Shown one piece after another: positions 2,990 to 60,985 of a stretch of 64,000 nucleotides of DNA. Numbering within the stretch: the stretch's first letter is position 1; each line of letters begins with the position of its first letter. Where the stretch lies: NCBI GenBank assembly GCA_019055375.1, contig JAHQIW010005992.1:1-64000 (forward strand), written 5' to 3'. Source of the DNA: Parelaphostrongylus tenuis. Taxonomy: Eukaryota; Nematoda; Chromadorea; Rhabditida; Metastrongylidae. A program made the translations under genes and the position numbers. The notes under the pieces were generated by a model. That model did not search any database, had not been told where the DNA came from, and saw nothing but the letters and a program-made list of their open reading frames with translations.

Positions 2990-3665
2990 TTTGTTTTACA
3001 TAGCATCGGTTATTGCAAACTTATGGAAATATCTCAGGAATATTTCCATAAGAAATGTCCACGGTAAAGCTAGTTATAGTGCATCAAATTTTAATTTACT
3101 TTTCGGAAATCAAATGATGGCGATAGACAAAATTGAGCTTCAAGTTTTGATACGCTGTTGCTCGAAGCGACCACTTTCGACAAAGAAGCTGCGAAGGAGT
3201 AACGTGGAATGGTGGTGCCATCAATGCCGAACGTTACTGTGAGCCGCGGGACCGAGTCTACGCTGCGTTGAAAAAAAGTGCCCAGTATTGGTTCATTGAA
3301 AGCGCGCGCTGTTTCAACAAACCAATGCCAAAACTCTCGCTAAAAAAGACTAAGGAAAAGCTCAATGAGTTGGAGGGAGACGTAGTCTCGCCGCACTCAT
3401 CCTACAGCTCAGATACTGCGCCATCCAATTATGGTCTTTTCTGCTCAATGAAACATTTCCTGCGTGGACGCCGATTCTACATACTCAATCAAGTTGAAGA
3501 GGCATGTCAGGAGTTCCTTGATTCAAAGCTCACGTACGAGCAATTTCGAGCAGCTTGGAAGATTGCCAATCGTTAGCAGAAGATCGCGGATAATGATGGT
3601 GTTTATTTCGAAGAACAGTTGTTACTGCTTTTGATTGAAATTATGCAGAAGCTTTGAATTCTTAG
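2990..3665 (+). pseudogene. Mariner-like transposase remnant (C-terminal part)
   Basis: The frame at 3268-3576 has SPHSSYSSDTAPSNYGLFCS, then FLRGRRF and EACQEFLDSK. This is the mariner block HxPYSPDLAPSDYxLF, FLxGxxF, with the catalytic third Asp of the DDD triad seen as D in SDTAPSNY. A frame break follows, then QKIADNDGVYFEEQ. The upstream frame to about 2990 is too degraded to place. It is absent from the intact gene, so it inserted after the duplication. No clear TIRs were found. Confidence 0.75.
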
Positions 3666-9834: not shown

Positions 9835-9900
9835 TAAGATAATAGTTTTATTTCCGACTGTTTTGAGACCCATTGATGTAGAGCAATGTGCAAAACTTTC

Positions 9901-9973
9901 GCGCCAAGCGGGAATAGAACCCGCACCTCGCTCTTTCCGGGAATGCGTGCTCTATCCGTTACACTACTGACGC
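9901..9973 (-). tRNA. tRNA-like domain of family E (probably not a functional tRNA gene)
   Basis: The 73-nt reverse complement begins GCGTCAG and ends TTGGCGC, which pair over seven positions with wobbles. The T arm GCGGG-TTCTATT-CCCGC is perfect. The D and anticodon arms do not close well, so it is SINE- or transposon-borne. Confidence 0.45.
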
Positions 9974-10210
9974 CCATTTTACACATCGCTCTTTTCTACT
10001 CTTCAGCGCACATATATGCCACCGCCATAACATCATACCACCGCTAAAAGCGGTTAAGAAAAAAACGAATATCATTTGATCTTTAATACCCAATATCTAT
10101 CAGAGTGACTGGGTTCAATGTCGAGATCGACTGCCCGGGCCAGGCCGTTGACGGCTGGCGGCTGGCAGATATGTGCGCTAAAGCGTAGAAAAGAGCGATG
10201 TGTAAAATGG

Positions 10211-10283
10211 GCGTCAGTAGTGTAACGGATAGAGCACGCATTCCCGGAAAGAGTGAGGTGCGGGTTCTAGTCCCGCCTGGCGC
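10211..10283 (+). tRNA. tRNA-like domain of family E (probably not a functional tRNA gene)
   Basis: GCGTCAG pairs with CTGGCGC (one G-T); the T arm GCGGG-TTCTAGT-CCCGC is perfect. The anticodon arm is two bases longer than in the 54.8-kb copy and folds poorly. It mirrors 9901-9973. Confidence 0.45.
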
Positions 10284-10431
10284 GAAGTTTTGCATATTGC
10301 TCTACATCAATGGGTATATATTTGAAACATCATACCACCGCTAAAAGCGGTTAAATAAAAACGAGTATCATTTGTTTTGAGACCTCCTTCAAAACAGCAC
10401 AATCTGACAACATATTTGGACCCTCTCATAA

Positions 10432-16183: not shown

Positions 16184-16265
16184 TTGATTAGCTGACGCGA
16201 GTTGGTAAATTACTCGTAGTAATTCGGCTGACGTTTCGGCTACCCGCCTTCTTCAGAGCCGATTC
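16184..16265 (-). ncRNA. Hammerhead-ribozyme-like motif at the Penelope-like end (- copy)
   Basis: Reading -: GGCT, core CTGAAGA (16250-16256), stem II GGC-GGGTA-GCC, then GAAA (16234-16237) with CG pairing to CG of CGTC (16194-16197), then AGCTAATC pairing imperfectly with the 5' flank. Known: Penelope-like terminal repeats carry hammerhead motifs. The order CUGANGA, stem II, GAAA, NUH fits. Activity cannot be judged. Confidence 0.5.
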
Positions 16266-16384
16266 GCAGGATCTTGTTTATATGCTGCCTAGGTCATGTT
16301 AAGAGATCAAATGAAGGAAAGGCGCGAGATCTTGTGTGATGGTGAAACATTCGTTCCTCCGGTTCATTTCGAGGTTTCTGTAGC

Positions 16385-16760
16385 TTATCCAAAATGCCTC
16401 AAAAGTTTTGAGCGTGGATGTTTTGATTCCTGTGTTAGGATTGTGACAGTCACATCAGAATCCTTGTTACTGTGTTTTTGTGTCCTATGTAAACCTAAAG
16501 GTTTCGTTTCATCTAATTTAGATTTGCTATCTAGATGTTCTACTATGCGCATGAAGAGTGGTCTACCCGTTTCGCCCAAATGATCTTCCTCGCATGTCTT
16601 ACATGTTACCAAATAATTTGTGCCCGATCTCATACAGTACCCCTCTTTTCCGTTAGGGCAGATTATGCAGACTTTGGTGTTGCACAATCGAGCGTATAGT
16701 CTTGCGGATCAGCTGATGGCGTACGTAGGAGGTGGGATTTAAATAACTACCACGGAATTT
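16385..16760 (-). pseudogene. GIY-YIG endonuclease domain of the Penelope-like element (- copy)
   Basis: CNTKVCIICPNGKEGYCM, then SGTNYLVTCKTCEEDHLGET, then GRPLFMRIVEHLD and HRTQKH. This is the Cys-rich linker followed by GIY-YIG (here NYLV...DHLG) and the GETGRPLxxRxxEH helix. The second motif is degraded (DHLG for EYIG). Confidence 0.75.
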
Positions 16761-16782
16761 TCGAGACCGCATCTTCGAAGTC

Positions 16783-17097
16783 TTGAAAGGGCAGTCAGAG
16801 CATATAAAATTTACGCGAGAAAGTCCAAACGGGAGCAGGCTTCCATTATCAAACATCCAAGTAATTTTGGATAGTAGTCATAGTACAAAATGGTTTGGAA
16901 AACCAAATAATAGAAACATTTTGGTTGGTCATCTTTCCTCTTATCCTTCACAAATGGAAAAATCGCTAAATGAAAACATGTTTCAAACGGCTAAAAATGT
17001 GTGCACAGGAGAAGAGGAAAGGAACGATTCGTTAAACTTGGCGCGAAAAATTGCCATTTCCAAAGGCTGCAAAAGTTGTGCCATCGCGAAAATTTAA
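16783..17097 (+). pseudogene. RT C-terminal (thumb) region of the Penelope-like element (+ copy)
   Basis: HIKFTRESPNGSRLPLSNIQ, then TKWFGKPNNRNILVGHLSSY, then MFQTAKNVCTGEEER. The layout IKFTxE...LPFLNxQ...TKWYRKPxNKN...SxHP is that of Penelope-type RT after the catalytic core. The YxDD core itself is not present, so the copy is 5'-truncated. Confidence 0.72.
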
Positions 17098-17219
17098 AAA
17101 GTGGCATTAGGTCTTAAAAGAACAATACTCCACACTTGAACAGAATTCCCTTCAAACTGCTATTTATAATAAGCGAAATCAGCAGTGCGGTTAAAGAGTG
17201 CCTAGAAAGATGCGGTTCT

Positions 17220-17700
17220 GGAAATTCCATGGTAGTTATTTAAATTCCACCTCCCACCCTACGCTATCAAGTGATCCAGAATAGACTATACGCTCGATTG
17301 TGTAACACCAAAAACTGTATATTCTGCCTCAACGAAAAGGAGAGGTATTGTATGAGATCGGGGACAATTTATTTGGTATCATGTAAGACATGCGGGGAAG
17401 AATATATAGCCGAAAAGCGTAGACCGTTTTCATCCGCATATAAGAACATCTAGGTAGTAAATCTAAAATACACAAAACCAAGCCTTTAGGCTTACATAGG
17501 GCACAAAACATAATAACAAAGAATTCCATGTAACTGTCACAATCCTAGCGCAGGAATCAAACACATCCACGCGCAAAGCTCTTGAGGCATTTTGGATAAG
17601 CTCCAAAAACTCCGAAATATACCGGAAGGTCGAATGCGTCACCATCACACGAGATCCCGCTCACTTTCTTCGTTTTATCTTTTTACCTGACCTAGGCAGC
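17220..17700 (+). pseudogene. GIY-YIG endonuclease domain of the Penelope-like element (+ copy)
   Basis: RLYARLCNTKNCIFCLNEKE, then YLVSCKTCGEEYIAEKRRPF, then after a frame break PLGLHRAQNI- and AKLLRHFG-like sequence. It pairs with 16385-16760. ETGRP has become EKRRP. Confidence 0.72.
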
Positions 17701-17747
17701 ATATAACTGAGATCCTTCGAATCATTCAAATAGACTAATACTGCATG

Positions 17748-17830
17748 CGCCCAAGATCTGGAGAAGGCGAGTCGCTGAAACGTCACCGCATTACTACGAC
17801 AACTATACCAACCTCGCGTCAGTTAATCAA
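17748..17830 (+). ncRNA. Hammerhead-ribozyme-like motif at the Penelope-like end (+ copy)
   Basis: Same layout as the - copy: CTGGAGA (17758-17764), stem II GGCG/CGCT, GAAA (17777-17780), then CGTC at 17817-17820 followed by AGTTAATC. The core A changed to G in CTGGAGA should kill cleavage, so this is a decayed copy. Confidence 0.4.
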
Positions 17831-18063
17831 GATAAGTTTTCTCGATTTTCATGCTTTTTGCATATATAACTCTTATATCTGAAGAAAGGAATGAAAATTG
17901 GATCACGGTGATTACTTCGTTAGGAACGGCACTGTATACTACATACGATGTCAGTTCATTGATAAACATTTTCAATTGCTCAATACTGGTGCAATCCAGA
18001 AGTTTGGCCTTCTATGAGTCTAGAGACAGTGTTTTTCTATTGTTCTCTAGGTAATACATTTTT

Positions 18064-18345
18064 GATGTAGAGTGATGTGCAAAACTTTGGCGTAAGGCGA
18101 GACTCAAACCCACATCTCCCCTGTCCGGGAGCGCTGCCCTAACTCGTTGCATTACCAACGCCCGCTTTGCTCACCACTCTTCTACGCCGCAACGCATCTA
18201 TCTGTCAGCAACCAGCCGTCAAGGCTTGTCCTAGGCAGTCGCTTATCGACATTGGACTCAGTCACGCTGGCACATATGGGGTATCAGATTGTCAAATAGG
18301 GTTCCTTTTTATTTACCCTCTTCTAGCGGTTTTATGATGTTACAA
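18064..18345 (-). mobile_element. Family E unit, diverged
   Basis: The reverse complement has CATCATAAAACCGCTAG, GTGACTGAGTCCAATGTCG, GGCTGGTTGCTGACAGATAG, then the tRNA-like domain (GCGTTGG to CTTACGC), then AAGTTTTGCACATCACTCTA. Only one inverted end is kept. Confidence 0.65.
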
Positions 18346-18700
18346 AGACTTTCTCAAAGGCCAAAGCTAGTTCCAGGACCAATGAGATTTGAGCCATCAA
18401 ATAAGTGCTGGCAATTCAGTGAAAGCTTATGCATAGGCGTTAGCCGTGCACAAAAATCGCGTTTGGGAAGCGTAGTTCTATCTTGGGTTCTAAATCGCAT
18501 TAGGAAGGTTTTTTCAGAAATGAACATTGTTTTGAAACCATCGCTTCTTGAAGTGACAAATGATTACCACAGCACCCAAAGAAGCTTTGTCCGCTGTAAA
18601 AACGAAGCAATTACTACTACGTGCAAAACGCACTTTTATTAGCATTTTAGTGCGTCATTTAATTCTTTATCACAGTCCTTTTTTCAGTGTACGGATCCCA
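18345..18700. other. No recognisable gene
   Basis: Contains a long chance frame on +, with no family motif and no splice support. Confidence 0.25.
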
Positions 18701-34249: not shown

Positions 34250-35565
34250 TCGATGACAAACGGCTGTAATTGATATTTATATAGACTTTCCCTTCTGATC
34301 ACCCATTTTCTGAACCTTGTTTCGAGCTTCGTGACATTCTGAAAGAGTTATTTATTGTGGAAGACTTAGGCAGAATTTTGCTTCGTTAGGTCTTCTCATT
34401 CTGTGTCTCACCTTTCCTATTACGTAGAAGTAACTGGTGGAGCGCTGAGCTCTGACGGGCGAGTGAGATTGTGAAAGGTTATAGGCCACTCACATATCAA
34501 GCCTCGAAACGTGGAACGTGTTTCGGGAAATATTGTAGTTCATAAACGAGGTTCAAGAACATTAGATCAAAAGAAAATACCGTCGAAATTGGGAACTGCT
34601 TTGCAATTTACTCTAAGTCCCTTTTATCAGTTTGTACGAAGCCACCTTCAGTACGATAGCTTTGAATTATTAAATCACTTAATATTCAGTTGATAGCTGA
34701 TGGTTTTTTAATCTGATCTAATGAGTAGTTGCGAAATCATCTTCTTCTATAATTGTAGGTGCAGAATATGGCTTTTCCGATTGAGGTCGACCACAATATC
34801 TTTCTCCAGCAACCTATACATCGACTTGAAAACATGTGGCGTAAAAGCTCTGTACAGCGGATAAACCGGAAAAAATGCAGGCGCACAAATGCTGAAAATC
34901 TGTGGTGTGTTTCAGCATACATAACAAAATTAATGCACATGGTCGCTTTGCTGTTTCAGATCTTTGGAAACTATCCCATCTTTGCGATCCGCAAATTGCA
35001 CATCGGCAGCTGGAACACACATAGACCTCTCACATAATAATAACAACTGATGAAAGATGGAACAGAGAATAAGGGAGTGGACTCCATGAGAATGTAAACG
35101 GCCTTTTGGAAGACCACCGAATGATAGGCGAGCGCGTTTGTTTCTTCAACCATTCTCATCCGCAGATGATAAAAAGTTTGCATCGTCGAATGGTTTCCGC
35201 GTGCGTCTTCATCATGAACGACAATTGTGAGAGAAAGAATTGAAAACTATCATGGAGCTCGCACAGCCAGTGAAGGAATTCGTCTAGGTATTTAAGTGTT
35301 CAGGTTATTGTTACTATCTAATTTAACTAAAACTCAGTCCCACGAGTTTTCCCCAATATAGAGGGAACGGCAATCGTATTCGACATTTTTATAGTCATTA
35401 TTAATTAGTCACCTTCACAAAAAATACATGAGTTAATTCTCACAAGTCTTCTCTTCACAAGTTCTCGACTTTATAACACAGTGAAAACTGATGAACTCTT
35501 CGTCTCCTGCTTTCACATCTTCAAATAATGATATAAGACTATCGCTTGATTAGATGAAATTCTCT
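34250..35565. other. No recognisable gene
   Basis: Several overlapping frames of 60-90 codons on both strands near 34.7-35.1 kb, without domain motifs or compatible splice sites. Confidence 0.25.
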
Positions 35566-35569
35566 TTAT

Positions 35570-36095
35570 TTAACCGCTCTAGCGGTGGTACGATGTTATG
35601 AATATACCCAGTAATGTAGAGTATGTGCAAAACTTTTTGCGCCAGTGAGGACTCCAACCCACATCTCACTCTATATGGGAGCCAGTGCTCTAACACATTG
35701 CACTGCTGATTCCCATTCTGCACACTACTCTTCTACGTTACAGCGCATCTATCTGTCAGCCGCCAACCGCCAACGGCCTGGCCCGAGTAGTCGGTGTCGA
35801 CATTGAACCCCAGTCACGCTGGAAGCGGTTAAATAAAATGAATTTCATTTGATCATCAATATTCAATACGTGTAGCGTGACTGTGGTTCAATGTCGACAC
35901 CGATTACCCGGACCAGGTCGCTGACTACTACCGGCTGGCAGATAGATGAGCTGTAGAGTTGAAAGAGTGTTGTGCGAAATAGGCGTAAGTAGTGCAACGG
36001 GATAGAGTACGCGCTCTCGAATAGAATGAGATGTGCGTTTGAGTCCCGCCTGACGCAGAAGTTCTGCACTTCACTCTACAACACTGGATATATCG
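35570..36095. mobile_element. Family E head-to-head pair
   Basis: A - unit (35570-35840) and a + unit (35845-36095) mirror each other. Both have CCAACCGCC / GCTGGCAGATAGAT, a tRNA-like domain (35640-35713 on -, about 35983-36057 on +) and the outer AGTTTTGCACATACTCTACA-type end. A CCGCTCTAGCGG hairpin is at the left edge. It has the same layout as 9859-10384. Confidence 0.68.
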
Positions 36096-39914: not shown

Positions 39915-40560
39915 AAAGATTGAATATTGCTGGAGAGAGTTCTGTAAGTGAATTTCCTTTGAAAAATGCTCATATCCCAAAAAACAGGAGGAAACGGGCG
40001 GCTTGGGGAGCATCTAAGAGCATCGAAGATTTAGTGAAGAGCACAAAGAACATCCGACTCCGTGCCCACCATTTCAACTTGTCGATTATCCCTGCCCTAA
40101 CGTATGCAATAGAAACCTGGTCGCTACTTAAGTAGGATGAAAGATCACTTGGCGTTATTGAATGTGCAGTCGAAAGGTCGATGCTACGAGTATCCTGTAT
40201 CTCGCAAATGAGAGGATCCGCATTGAAAGATGGAAGATCAAAGACGCCGTCCTACACGCTAGAATATCGGAAATAAGATGGGCCGGACACGTGATGCGCT
40301 TCAACGATAACTGATGGACAATAGCCGTTACCAGCTGGATTCCTCGGGATATCTAGCTCTCTACAAAAAGACCACCGATCTGATGGCCTGATTTCCTCTC
40401 TAAAAGCATAGAAGAAAGATATGTAGCGCAACGAATGACTAGAACGAGAAGGACCCACTGGGCTACTCTTGCACGCGGTAGGGAAAAAGGAAGTGCTTTC
40501 TTGTACTCGCTGAAGTCACTCGACACTCAGCGGGACGGCAGGTGATACAGGTGATCACAA
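39915..40560 (+). pseudogene. RTE-type LINE 3' end (ORF2 C-terminus)
   Basis: KRAAWGASKSIEDLVKSTKN, IRLRAHHFNLSIIPALTYAI, ETWSL; then frame breaks, IRWAGHVMRFNDN, SWIPRDI, and RRTHWATLARGREKGS near the end. This is the standard C-terminal block of RTE-clade reverse transcriptase proteins. It ends in the RTE-like GGTGATACAGGTGATCAC tail. 5'-truncated, several stops. Confidence 0.85.
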
Positions 40561-54560: not shown

Positions 54561-54564
54561 AAAA

Positions 54565-54915
54565 CTCTGCCTTGATGTTATAGTATACCCAATATGTGGA
54601 GTGCTGTTCAAAAACGTTTGCATCATACCACTGCAAGTGGCAGTCAAAATAGAAAGAATTTAGAATGATTATCGATATCCAATATCTGTCAACACAAGTG
54701 GATTCAATGCCGATAGCGGCTGCCCCGCCAGACCGTCGACGGTTGGTGTTGGCAGACAACGCGCTATAGCGTAAATAAGAGTGCTGTGCAAAACGAGCGT
54801 CGGTAATGCAGCGGTTAGCATACGCTCACGGAAAGAGTGAGATCCGGGTTCGGATCCCGGCTGACGCAAACGTTTTTGCACAGCACTCCACATATTGGGT
54901 ATAACTCTGCCTTGA
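54565..54915 (+). mobile_element. Family E solo element: tRNA-like domain inside 38-bp inverted repeats
   Basis: The left end 54586-54623 and right end 54866-54903 are inverted copies with one mismatch in 38 (TATACCCAATATGTGGAGTG...). The direct repeat AACTCTGCCTTGA at 54565-54577 and 54903-54915 suggests a 13-bp target duplication. Inside: hairpin CCACT-GCA-AGTGG, a GC-rich middle, then a tRNA-like domain whose last two bases overlap the right TIR. No open frame. Confidence 0.75.
54797..54867 (+). tRNA. tRNA-like cloverleaf carried by family E
   Basis: 71 nt. Acceptor GCGTCGG/CTGACGC (7 pairs, one G-T); D stem ATGC/GCAT; anticodon stem CGCTC/GAGTG (5 pairs, one G-T); loop ACGGAAA; variable AGAT; T arm CCGGG-TTCGGAT-CCCGG. 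Loop position 33 is C rather than the usual T, and the triplet would be GGA without the long variable arm of tRNA-Ser. It is therefore a mobile-element tRNA-like domain that may still drive pol III through its A and B boxes. Confidence 0.6.
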
Positions 54916-55092: not shown

Positions 55093-55395
55093 ATGGGCAC
55101 ATGTGACGTAGTGGTTAGAGGTGCTGTGCATAGCGCACACTGTCGATAGCTCGATATCAGGCTCTCGCCTCATCAAGCCATCCATCCATTCCACCGGGCT
55201 CGGTGAATTGGGATCACTTCTGTCTGAGAGGATAAGACCCACGACTCGTTACAGCCTTAGGCCACCACGAGTCATTATAGAGGGCAGATATGCATTCAGT
55301 TACTTCAAACGAGGCTAAAATTGAAGGCGAATGCACGGAACATCCCTCAGAGGTTGATCAACGCCGGGAGCTTCATCCTAATATTCTTTGGCTTA
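55093..55395 (+). mobile_element. SINE-B copy
   Basis: CACATGTGACGTAGTGGTTA, GAGGTGCTGTGCATAGCGC, CTCATCAAGCCATCCATCC, TTGAAGGCGAATGCACGG, CAACGCCGGGAGCTTCATCC. Full length. Confidence 0.78.
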
Positions 55396-57386: not shown

Positions 57387-57953
57387 CATGTAATTGATTC
57401 TTTTCATTATTATTTGAGCCAACATGTCATGTGTTCTGGTAGGGGCTCTTGTACAGCCCGAGACACGTGTTTCGTCCTTACAGACTCATCAGCCGGGCAG
57501 AACCCGTCGTCTGTCGATCTTTTTATAGTCAGTTCTCTCGGGAGCATTACACTCCTTATAGAGAGTTGTCGACGACGTACGTTTTACACTCTATGTCAGG
57601 CGAAATTTTCACCTAACACAGAGTGCTTTCGCACTCGATTGCTAGCTGGCTGGTATTTTTATCATATTATGCCTTTCCTGACAATTCGCCTGACATAGAG
57701 TGTAAAACGTACGTCGTCGACAACTCTCTATAAGGAGTGTAATGCTCCCGAGAGAACTGACTATAAAAAGATCGACACACGACGGGTTCTGCCCGGCTGA
57801 TGAGTGTGTAAGGACGAAACACGTGTCTCGGGCTGTACAAGAGCCCCTACCAGAACACATGACGTGTTGGCTTAAATAATAATGAAAGTCCATTGAAATT
57901 TGAGCGTGGTCTTAATAAAGCACTCGAAGGAAAGGTATAACATGTAATTGATT
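57387..57953. mobile_element. Young family D foldback element with near-identical 203-bp arms
   Basis: 57402-57604 and 57685-57887 are inverted copies differing at 4 positions, around an 80-bp centre. The direct repeat CATGTAATTGATT lies at 57387-57399 and 57941-57953. 53 bp between the right arm and the repeat carry the D outer end (TTTGAGCGTGGTCTTAATAA). The two long open frames, one per strand, are the same arm translated twice. Confidence 0.85.
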
Positions 57954-60284: not shown

Positions 60285-60985
60285 CCAGTATCACCTGTTT
60301 CACCTGTCTTCCCGTTGATCGTCGAATGACTCGAACGGGCACCAGCAACACTTCCATTATTCCCTATCGCGTGCAAAAGTAGCTTAGTGGATACTCCTCG
60401 TTCCATTTCGTTGAGGATCTTATTTTTGTTCTAGGCTTATCGTAAAGAAATCGTACTATTGGGTCGGTGGCCCTCTTGTAAAGCGCTTGATATTTCGAGA
60501 AATCCAGGCGGTAACAGCTTCCGTCCATCGTTTTTAGCTGAAGTACTACTGGTCCTGTCCACATTATTTTCGACACCTTGGTGTGTGGAAAGGCGTCTTT
60601 GATCTTCGACCGTTGACGTAGGTGGGAACTTCAGACCTTTCTCTCACATGTGCGATACGGGATACTTCAAGCATCGATCTTTCGACTGCGCGTTTAATAA
60701 CGCCAAGTGACTTTTCATTCTGCTCACATAGCGAACAGGTTTCTGCTGCATGCGTTAGGGCAGGGATAATTGTCGAATTGAAAAGGTGGGCACGGAGTCG
60801 GATGTTTTCTGTCCCCTTCACTACATCTTCGATGTTCTGAAGCGTTTTTCAAGCCGCTGGCTTCCTCCTGGTCAACTCTGGAGCTACGTCGTTCGTCATG
60901 TTGATTTCACGACCTAGATAGACGTAACTAGAGCATTTGGAGATTGTCACTCTGTTGAGCGTGAATGAAGCATTCAAAACCCATA
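60285..60985 (-). pseudogene. RTE-type LINE 3' end (ORF2 C-terminus)
   Basis: On -: CSSYVYLGREIN-type segment, then IEDVVKGTENIRLRAHLFNS, TIIPALTHAAETCSLCEQNE, KSLGVIKRAVERSMLEVSRI, AHVRER. It aligns with 39915-40560 and ends at the same GGTGAAACAGGTGATAC tail. Frame breaks near 60,840 and 60,590. Confidence 0.82.

Follow-up and report, generated by a model that had tools for sequence, protein, structure and literature searches.

What kind of element brings together an inverted repeat, a tRNA cloverleaf and a target duplication of 12-13 bp? The three occur in combination at positions 54563-54915 of the window, the stretch of 64,000 nt from the nematode Parelaphostrongylus tenuis that we analysed (GCA_019055375.1, contig JAHQIW010005992.1, positions 1 to 64,000). 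The original prediction for this locus had considered a snap-back SINE as well as a MITE with a captured tRNA.

The 54-kb copy and its repeat unit

The inverted repeat at 54 kb has arms of 42 nt (54584-54625 and 54862-54903) that are 95% complementary and lie 236 nt apart. The direct repeat AACTCTGCCTTGA is found at 54563-54575 and 54903-54915, with 8 bases between its left occurrence and the left arm, and as a target duplication of 12-13 bp it scored 11.65 against a control maximum of 8.35. ARAGORN predicted a tRNA at 54797-54868 on the plus strand with anticodon GGA and a short variable loop; at the Rfam gathering score this tRNA was not called, whereas both tRNAs of another copy at 10 kb were. 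Eukaryotic tRNA-Ser has a long variable arm. The designation tRNA-Ser given earlier was based on the anticodon; the long variable arm is missing here. As predicted, the last bases of the tRNA (54862-54868) lie inside the right arm of the inverted repeat. A further inverted repeat of 15 nt with 100% complementarity encloses the tRNA directly (54779-54793 and 54874-54888, plus strand), which extends the stem below the cloverleaf and corresponds to helix 7 of our structure alignment.

Positions 54621-54903 (plus strand) represent one full unit consisting of a stem-loop, central hairpins, the tRNA and a GGGTATA end. The segment 54576-54625 (minus strand), previously regarded as the left terminal inverted repeat (TIR), is a short inverted copy of the tail-less unit end plus 5-8 bases of the stem-loop. 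The apparent TIR of the 54-kb copy is thus one short form of a variable head-to-head duplication. To the right of this copy (55096-55200) we noticed by eye another tRNA-like A-box word and a B-box-like stretch (GACGTAGTGGTTAGAGG..).

We searched the genome assembly (481.5 Mb in 5,105 contigs) with the 54-kb copy and obtained 3,891 candidates; among the 40 that were scored, the top copies were 88-95% identical. An 18-nt word of the unit had 1,592 genomic matches with at most one mismatch, and the reversed-pattern control had 0. Three additional copies were found in the window at 10, 18 and 35 kb. These copies and the word matches argue against a chance arrangement and bear out the expectation that a tRNA-like fold between inverted ends and target repeats marks a mobile element, here termed family E.

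The 10-kb copy comprises an inverted partial unit (9868-10027, minus strand) with a tRNA at 9900-9973 (minus strand), and a forward unit (10029-10374, plus strand) with a tRNA at 10211-10284 and a tail of about 49 nt at 10326-10374, flanked by the duplication TGTTTTGAGACC at 9859-9870 and 10373-10384. The 18-kb copy is a single truncated unit (18062-18346, minus strand). At 35 kb, an arm on the minus strand (35547-35821) with its tailed end at 35547 adjoins an arm on the plus strand (35822-36093) with its tail-less end at 36093; a target duplication above threshold was found for the 54-kb and 10-kb copies and not for this one. The layout of the 10-kb and 35-kb copies is that of two overlapping head-to-head copies and not of a TIR. 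In a tree built from window units only, the two 10-kb arms clustered together (95% alike) and the remaining units formed a star near 75%, so that age could not be separated from template in this tree. Elsewhere in the window (3151-3576), a frame resembled the end of a mariner transposase by eye, with no match in Pfam. A homologue search with a mariner-like fragment gave no hit.

A tandem array with a period of 291 nt at locus L027 provided the unit coordinates u1-u291. The unit is non-coding and starts with a stem-loop, the "tail" (u1 to about u43-57), followed by the central hairpins, the internal tRNA (u181-252, anticodon u214-216), five T shortly thereafter (u257-261) and GGGTATA (u281-287). 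In a predicted circular fold, about u276-286 would pair with u58-68, and a long stem would extend the tRNA acceptor. When the structure was applied to 7 aligned units, 3 of them from one subfamily and one of them the source of the structure itself, 91.7% of cells were paired, and 30-44% were still paired when the partner was slid by 1-3 columns. Cells with both sides changed numbered 23 versus a mean of 11.4 after shuffling (0 of 500 shuffles as high) and 2-6 after sliding, and further pair types (44) did not exceed the shuffled value of 44.8 for the 7 units. These comparisons support, and do not prove, conservation of the extended stem and of the modelled unit structure. A scan of the 10-kb copy at relaxed stringency, the one copy scanned in this way, yielded no convincing hammerhead or other Rfam family beyond tRNA up to E 5, and a search with the tail pattern gave 0 viral contigs.

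Outer ends and target sites across the genome

We read 37 loci selected by full-length similarity and 85 selected via a motif. Loci L001-L008, whose places are already represented by L009-L015 and the window, were excluded, as were segments below 82% identity. Removal of 4 repeats and 1 group at a locus edge left 123 insertions, and removal of 2 duplicate loci left 121, which do not include the 54-kb window copy. The motif set holds only insertions with an arm reaching u270-287 and consists of the first places in contig order, not of a random draw. Written as strand orders, the layouts of the 121 insertions were '-+' (92), '-++' (1), '--+' (2), '+' (13), '-' (12) and '++' (1). Accordingly, 95 of 121 distinct insertions were arranged head to head with their 3' ends outward. 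Partial tandems also occurred, as at L027, and 36 of 150 arms spanned at least one unit.

The outer ends fell mostly at two sites of the unit. Site A lies at about u276-290 with peaks at u287 and u281 and gives a tail-less end; site B lies at about u36-61 with peaks at u43 and u52-56 and gives an end with a tail of about 50 nt. In the predicted fold, the two pairing segments are located next to site A and just past site B, respectively. The 95 head-to-head pairs were mostly divided between the two sites: 78 were AB, 2 were BB, none was AA, and 15 had an end outside both classes. Under equal chance, AB in 78 of 80 classed pairs has a probability of 3e-21. The class bounds mattered little to this rule, since the counts (AB, BB, AA, other) were 68, 2, 0 and 25 when u1-9 was excluded from class A, 75, 2, 0 and 18 with refined ends, and 52, 1, 0 and 15 in the motif set alone. 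Insertions with a single segment used both sites about equally (A 12, B 10, other 4, counted before the last duplicate was dropped), and a shortage of either end therefore does not account for the rule. Inspection of the alignment by eye showed that the 10-kb and 35-kb copies follow it as well. The 54-kb copy breaks it, with one end at A and its left end 5-8 nt into the tail, which makes it AA by class bounds.

In 75 pairs, the sub-sites of A and B showed no fixed register (Fisher P 1). Insertions differed in inner junction and arm length, and the inner ends occurred in many combinations in these 75 pairs. This variation indicates that the TIRs were remade at insertion and not inherited, and the 42-nt repeat, although present at 54 kb as described before, is not a terminal inverted repeat in the inherited sense.

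A target duplication scoring above the control maximum, taken from 185 mismatched-flank pairs of the first 37 loci, was present in 61 of the 95 head-to-head insertions. The original prediction had staked itself on genomic copies that end at the inverted repeats and carry duplications, which largely agrees with this figure, but 34 of the 95 showed no such duplication. The lengths ranged from 9 to 20 bp, with 12 or 13 bp in 34 of 61. We further compared the joined flanks of 63 insertions with all fetched DNA and obtained matches for 9 loci, of which 8 were inspected (L046 was left out). Convincing paralogous empty sites, in which the duplicated word is present once, were seen for L080, L016, L086, L103 and L114 at 70-88% identity, and those for L045, L066 and L119 were ambiguous. 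At L016, family E sits inside a hammerhead element, and the empty site is visible in the 57-kb window copy of that element and in L119. The joined flanks of L045 share a repeat with window positions 39986-40423 and 60417-60894; these flanks also match L075, L030, L007 and L080. Oriented target sites were A-rich before the duplication and T-rich after it and nearly mirror-symmetric (33 sites), consistent with an enzyme that treats the two strands equally when cutting.

Source of the arms and inner ends in the tRNA

Of 393 non-consensus bases, 117 (30%) were common to both arms of an insertion, compared with a mean of 10% and a maximum of 14% after 200 permutations of partners; the count covered 80 of 93 pairs and was made before 2 duplicates were dropped. 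A single RNA, or sister RNAs with a common source, therefore probably served as template for both arms. Taken together, arm sharing and the A/B rule suggest that one complex makes both ends, and we lean towards a single complex that uses both reverse transcriptase (RT) start sites. In the insertions read, each start site is used once, as predicted by a model with two sites and one complex and not by independent priming.

Inner ends were located inside the tRNA in 104 of 220 cases, compared with 54 expected. The most conspicuous position was u213, which corresponds to tRNA position 33, the second base of the anticodon loop, and which held 16 of 220 inner ends with varied neighbours (P 3e-11 versus the local rate). 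With C at the preceding base u212 in 162 of 178 readings, an artefact of the consensus does not explain the peak. The peak might reflect either a cut of the RNA in the anticodon loop or a halt of the RT there. We gave no weight to a smaller peak at u197 (8 of 220), since the reference unit and the family consensus have different bases at u196. A search for a sharp RNase P peak showed a modest 4 ends at u181 and 4 at u182 out of 220.

For the tRNA as a whole, we tentatively propose a function as a stop or cutting module for RT or template. Among the roles considered, that of a folded or processed module which halts RT, or at which the template is cut, appears most likely, rather than that of a promoter for the whole unit. 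The five T after the tRNA make a promoter role for the whole element doubtful, as judged from the sequence, and a pol III transcript would probably end before site A.

One specific cause of the u213 peak might be 3-methylcytosine (m3C) at tRNA position 32 (u212), a modification which we assume to occur there and to stop RT. The peak lies exactly 3' of C212, and C-to-T changes at u212 were the most frequent among 46 non-CpG C sites (13 of 171 versus a mean of 2.2%; P 1.2e-4 before correction for 46 sites). Against m3C, the neighbours u211 and u213 are variable too, the tRNA does not have the long variable arm that tRNA-Ser has, and 0 of 220 ends were found at u238, the expected place of a block at A58. 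Where one insertion was read twice, variants at u212 were mixed in 5 cases and alike in 2, compared with 658 and 137 elsewhere, which is neutral on this point. Overall, we assign the m3C explanation a low probability. Family E would allow RT stops or RNA ends within a tRNA fold to be read from genome sequence alone.

Penelope-like and hammerhead elements and competing explanations

The same genome contains long-frame Penelope-like elements (PLEs) with the same layout. A search for GIY-YIG frames gave 1,723 candidates; the 150 that were scored and listed were all over the cut-off, with open frames of up to 902 aa. Neighbouring frames less than 6 kb apart among these 150 were, by eye, head to head in 20 cases, tail to tail in 0 and on one strand in 2. 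In one PLE copy, read from the adjoining stretches L132 and L131, a single frame encoded RVT_1 and then GIY-YIG, and the nearest named relatives of its protein were from the strongylid nematodes Necator, Ancylostoma and Haemonchus. The window itself holds decayed PLE pieces, of which one set forms head-to-head arms at 16227-17785 (GIY-YIG at 16305-16699, minus strand; RT/GIY-YIG at 16765-17682, plus strand). No significant sequence similarity was found between family E and the one PLE read (L131, L132). Two PLE copies (L131:610-632 and window 16229-16262, minus strand) contain, towards their 3' side, a short word resembling a hammerhead core, CTGAAGA..GAAAC; the window occurrence was found by eye, and Rfam made no call in L131.

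Published descriptions of PLEs, as far as covered by the text of these sources available to us, match family E in several respects. PLE insertions carry inverted pLTRs, an optional tail of 31 bp on one of them and duplications of 8-10 bp, some lacking the latter (PMC3846280), and tandem pLTRs have been reported together with internal starts of RT at two neighbouring positions that match the tail (PMC11167929). Head-to-head partial copies, partial tandems, a tail some tens of nt long on one side and a target duplication are equally found in family E, for which internal RT starts at two adjacent sites and cutting and extension of both strands may be supposed by analogy. In vitro, a PLE protein cut and extended both DNA strands, with no difference between the strands in where RT started (PMC11167929); given this lack of a strand difference, the study, in its available portion, does not itself predict the A/B rule. 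Unlike the PLEs so described, family E encodes nothing, measures 291 nt per unit and contains a tRNA; the one copy that was scanned yielded no hammerhead, and the duplications are mostly of 12-13 bp instead of 8-10 bp.

We conclude that family E is very probably a non-autonomous retroelement of PLE type, moved in trans by a protein with Penelope-like RT and GIY-YIG domains, its presumptive mover. In the proposed mechanism, a dimeric PLE protein would bind an RNA that contains the 291-nt unit, sometimes as a partial tandem. At a target of the form AA..TT, roughly symmetric, this protein would cleave the two strands at positions some 12-13 nt from each other. The 3' ends so exposed would each start reverse transcription at an internal position of the RNA, the first at site A (u281, u287) and the second at site B (u43, u52-56 of the next unit), about 50 nt downstream. 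The two cDNAs would stop variably, often in the tRNA, and be joined head to head, and fill-in would yield the target duplication.

Twin priming inverts a 5' part of an insertion with little duplication. If a LINE had mobilised a SINE and this process had inverted its 5' part, the tRNA with its A- and B-box-like words (by eye), the target duplications of 9-20 bp and the inverted 5' parts would fit. Family E shares with tRNA-derived SINEs the tRNA domain, the size and the target duplications, but it has head-to-head insertions and two 3' initiation sites: two overlapping arms both end at 3' sites, and 78 of the 80 classed pairs have a tail at just one end. In addition, its tRNA occupies u181-252 of 291 and not the 5' end and is followed by five T, an arrangement that does not look like a 5' pol III promoter. 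We therefore consider such a SINE very unlikely. The original idea of a snap-back SINE came close in supposing a retroelement of snap-back type, and it fails as an ordinary SINE for the same reason. Snap-back in the strict sense, in which one cDNA primes itself to make both arms, has been proposed for some PLE palindromes (PMC3846280, in the part available) and would agree with the variants common to both arms; a second fixed end is unexpected under self-priming, however, and we regard it as unlikely, because 78 of the 80 classed pairs have one outer end at A and one at B, and the 75 pairs compared combine their inner ends in many ways. The alternative of a MITE or foldback DNA transposon with a captured tRNA gene, to which inverted ends and a duplication point at first sight, is extremely improbable. 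Inner junctions and arm lengths vary where inherited TIRs would be fixed, single-arm and tandem copies exist, and the ends lie at two sites of one RNA-like unit.

A tRNA-bearing element assigned to PLEs, or a count of A and B ends, was not found in the full-text literature that was accessible, with Repbase and subscription journals outside its scope. The earlier statement that no named family has this layout thus holds for tRNA-bearing PLE families in that literature, but the layout as such has a parallel in PLEs. Elements of the TRIMp3 group, such as Helenus, duplicate 4-6 bp of target, in contrast to the mode of 12-13 bp in family E. The TRIMp3 elements Cassandra, Helenus and Ajax resemble family E in carrying a small-RNA gene within a non-autonomous retroelement, but according to the available text of PMC10886601 they are LTR elements with PBS and PPT, whereas family E has head-to-head arms and a longer duplication. 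In the scheme given there (Kojima), small-RNA-derived elements comprise SINEs, with non-LTR elements as movers, and TRIMp3, with LTR elements as movers. If our reading is true, PLEs join LINEs and LTR elements as movers of repeats derived from small-RNA genes. PLE integration is poorly understood, and the short, readable arms of family E represent hundreds of natural integration events. A practical consequence is that tRNA finders can count family E copies as tRNA genes.

The closest small relatives might be metazoan (non-LTR) retrozymes, which in the accessible parts of PMC7229834 and PMC7761336 share with family E a short non-coding tandem unit of about 300 nt and duplications longer than 4 bp, and which differ from it in having a type I hammerhead in place of the tRNA. 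PLEs or Terminons have been named as likely movers of animal retrozymes (PMC7761336, same limitation). The best reading is that in family E the tRNA stands where related small elements carry the hammerhead. A wider proposal, that family E represents a class derived from small-RNA genes on PLE machinery, in which a tRNA on an extended stem replaces the hammerhead, one RNP uses two RT starts, the tRNA is recognised in the cell and the u213 peak is a footprint left either by cleavage in the anticodon loop or by a base at position 32 that blocks RT, is speculative and in this full form rather doubtful.

A hammerhead-bearing family resembling metazoan retrozymes is present in the same genome, with 3,191 candidates, of which 40 were scored. 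In the window, this non-coding family was found at 10.4, 14.9, 24.9-25.9, 28.4, 33.7, 50.7 and 57.4 kb. The 57-kb copy (57402-57887) consists of two 203-nt arms head to head with an Rfam type I hammerhead at 57456-57498 (minus strand), and it was the only copy to pass the Rfam gathering score. In most window copies, two inverted arms had their 3' ends outward. At 15.3 and 34.1 kb the second of these was weak, and solitary arms also occurred. Paired arms were head to head with 3' ends outward in 9 of 9 cases judged by eye, the other scored regions listing one arm, and in the three readable pairs (57 kb, 50 kb and L087) a tail was present at one end only.
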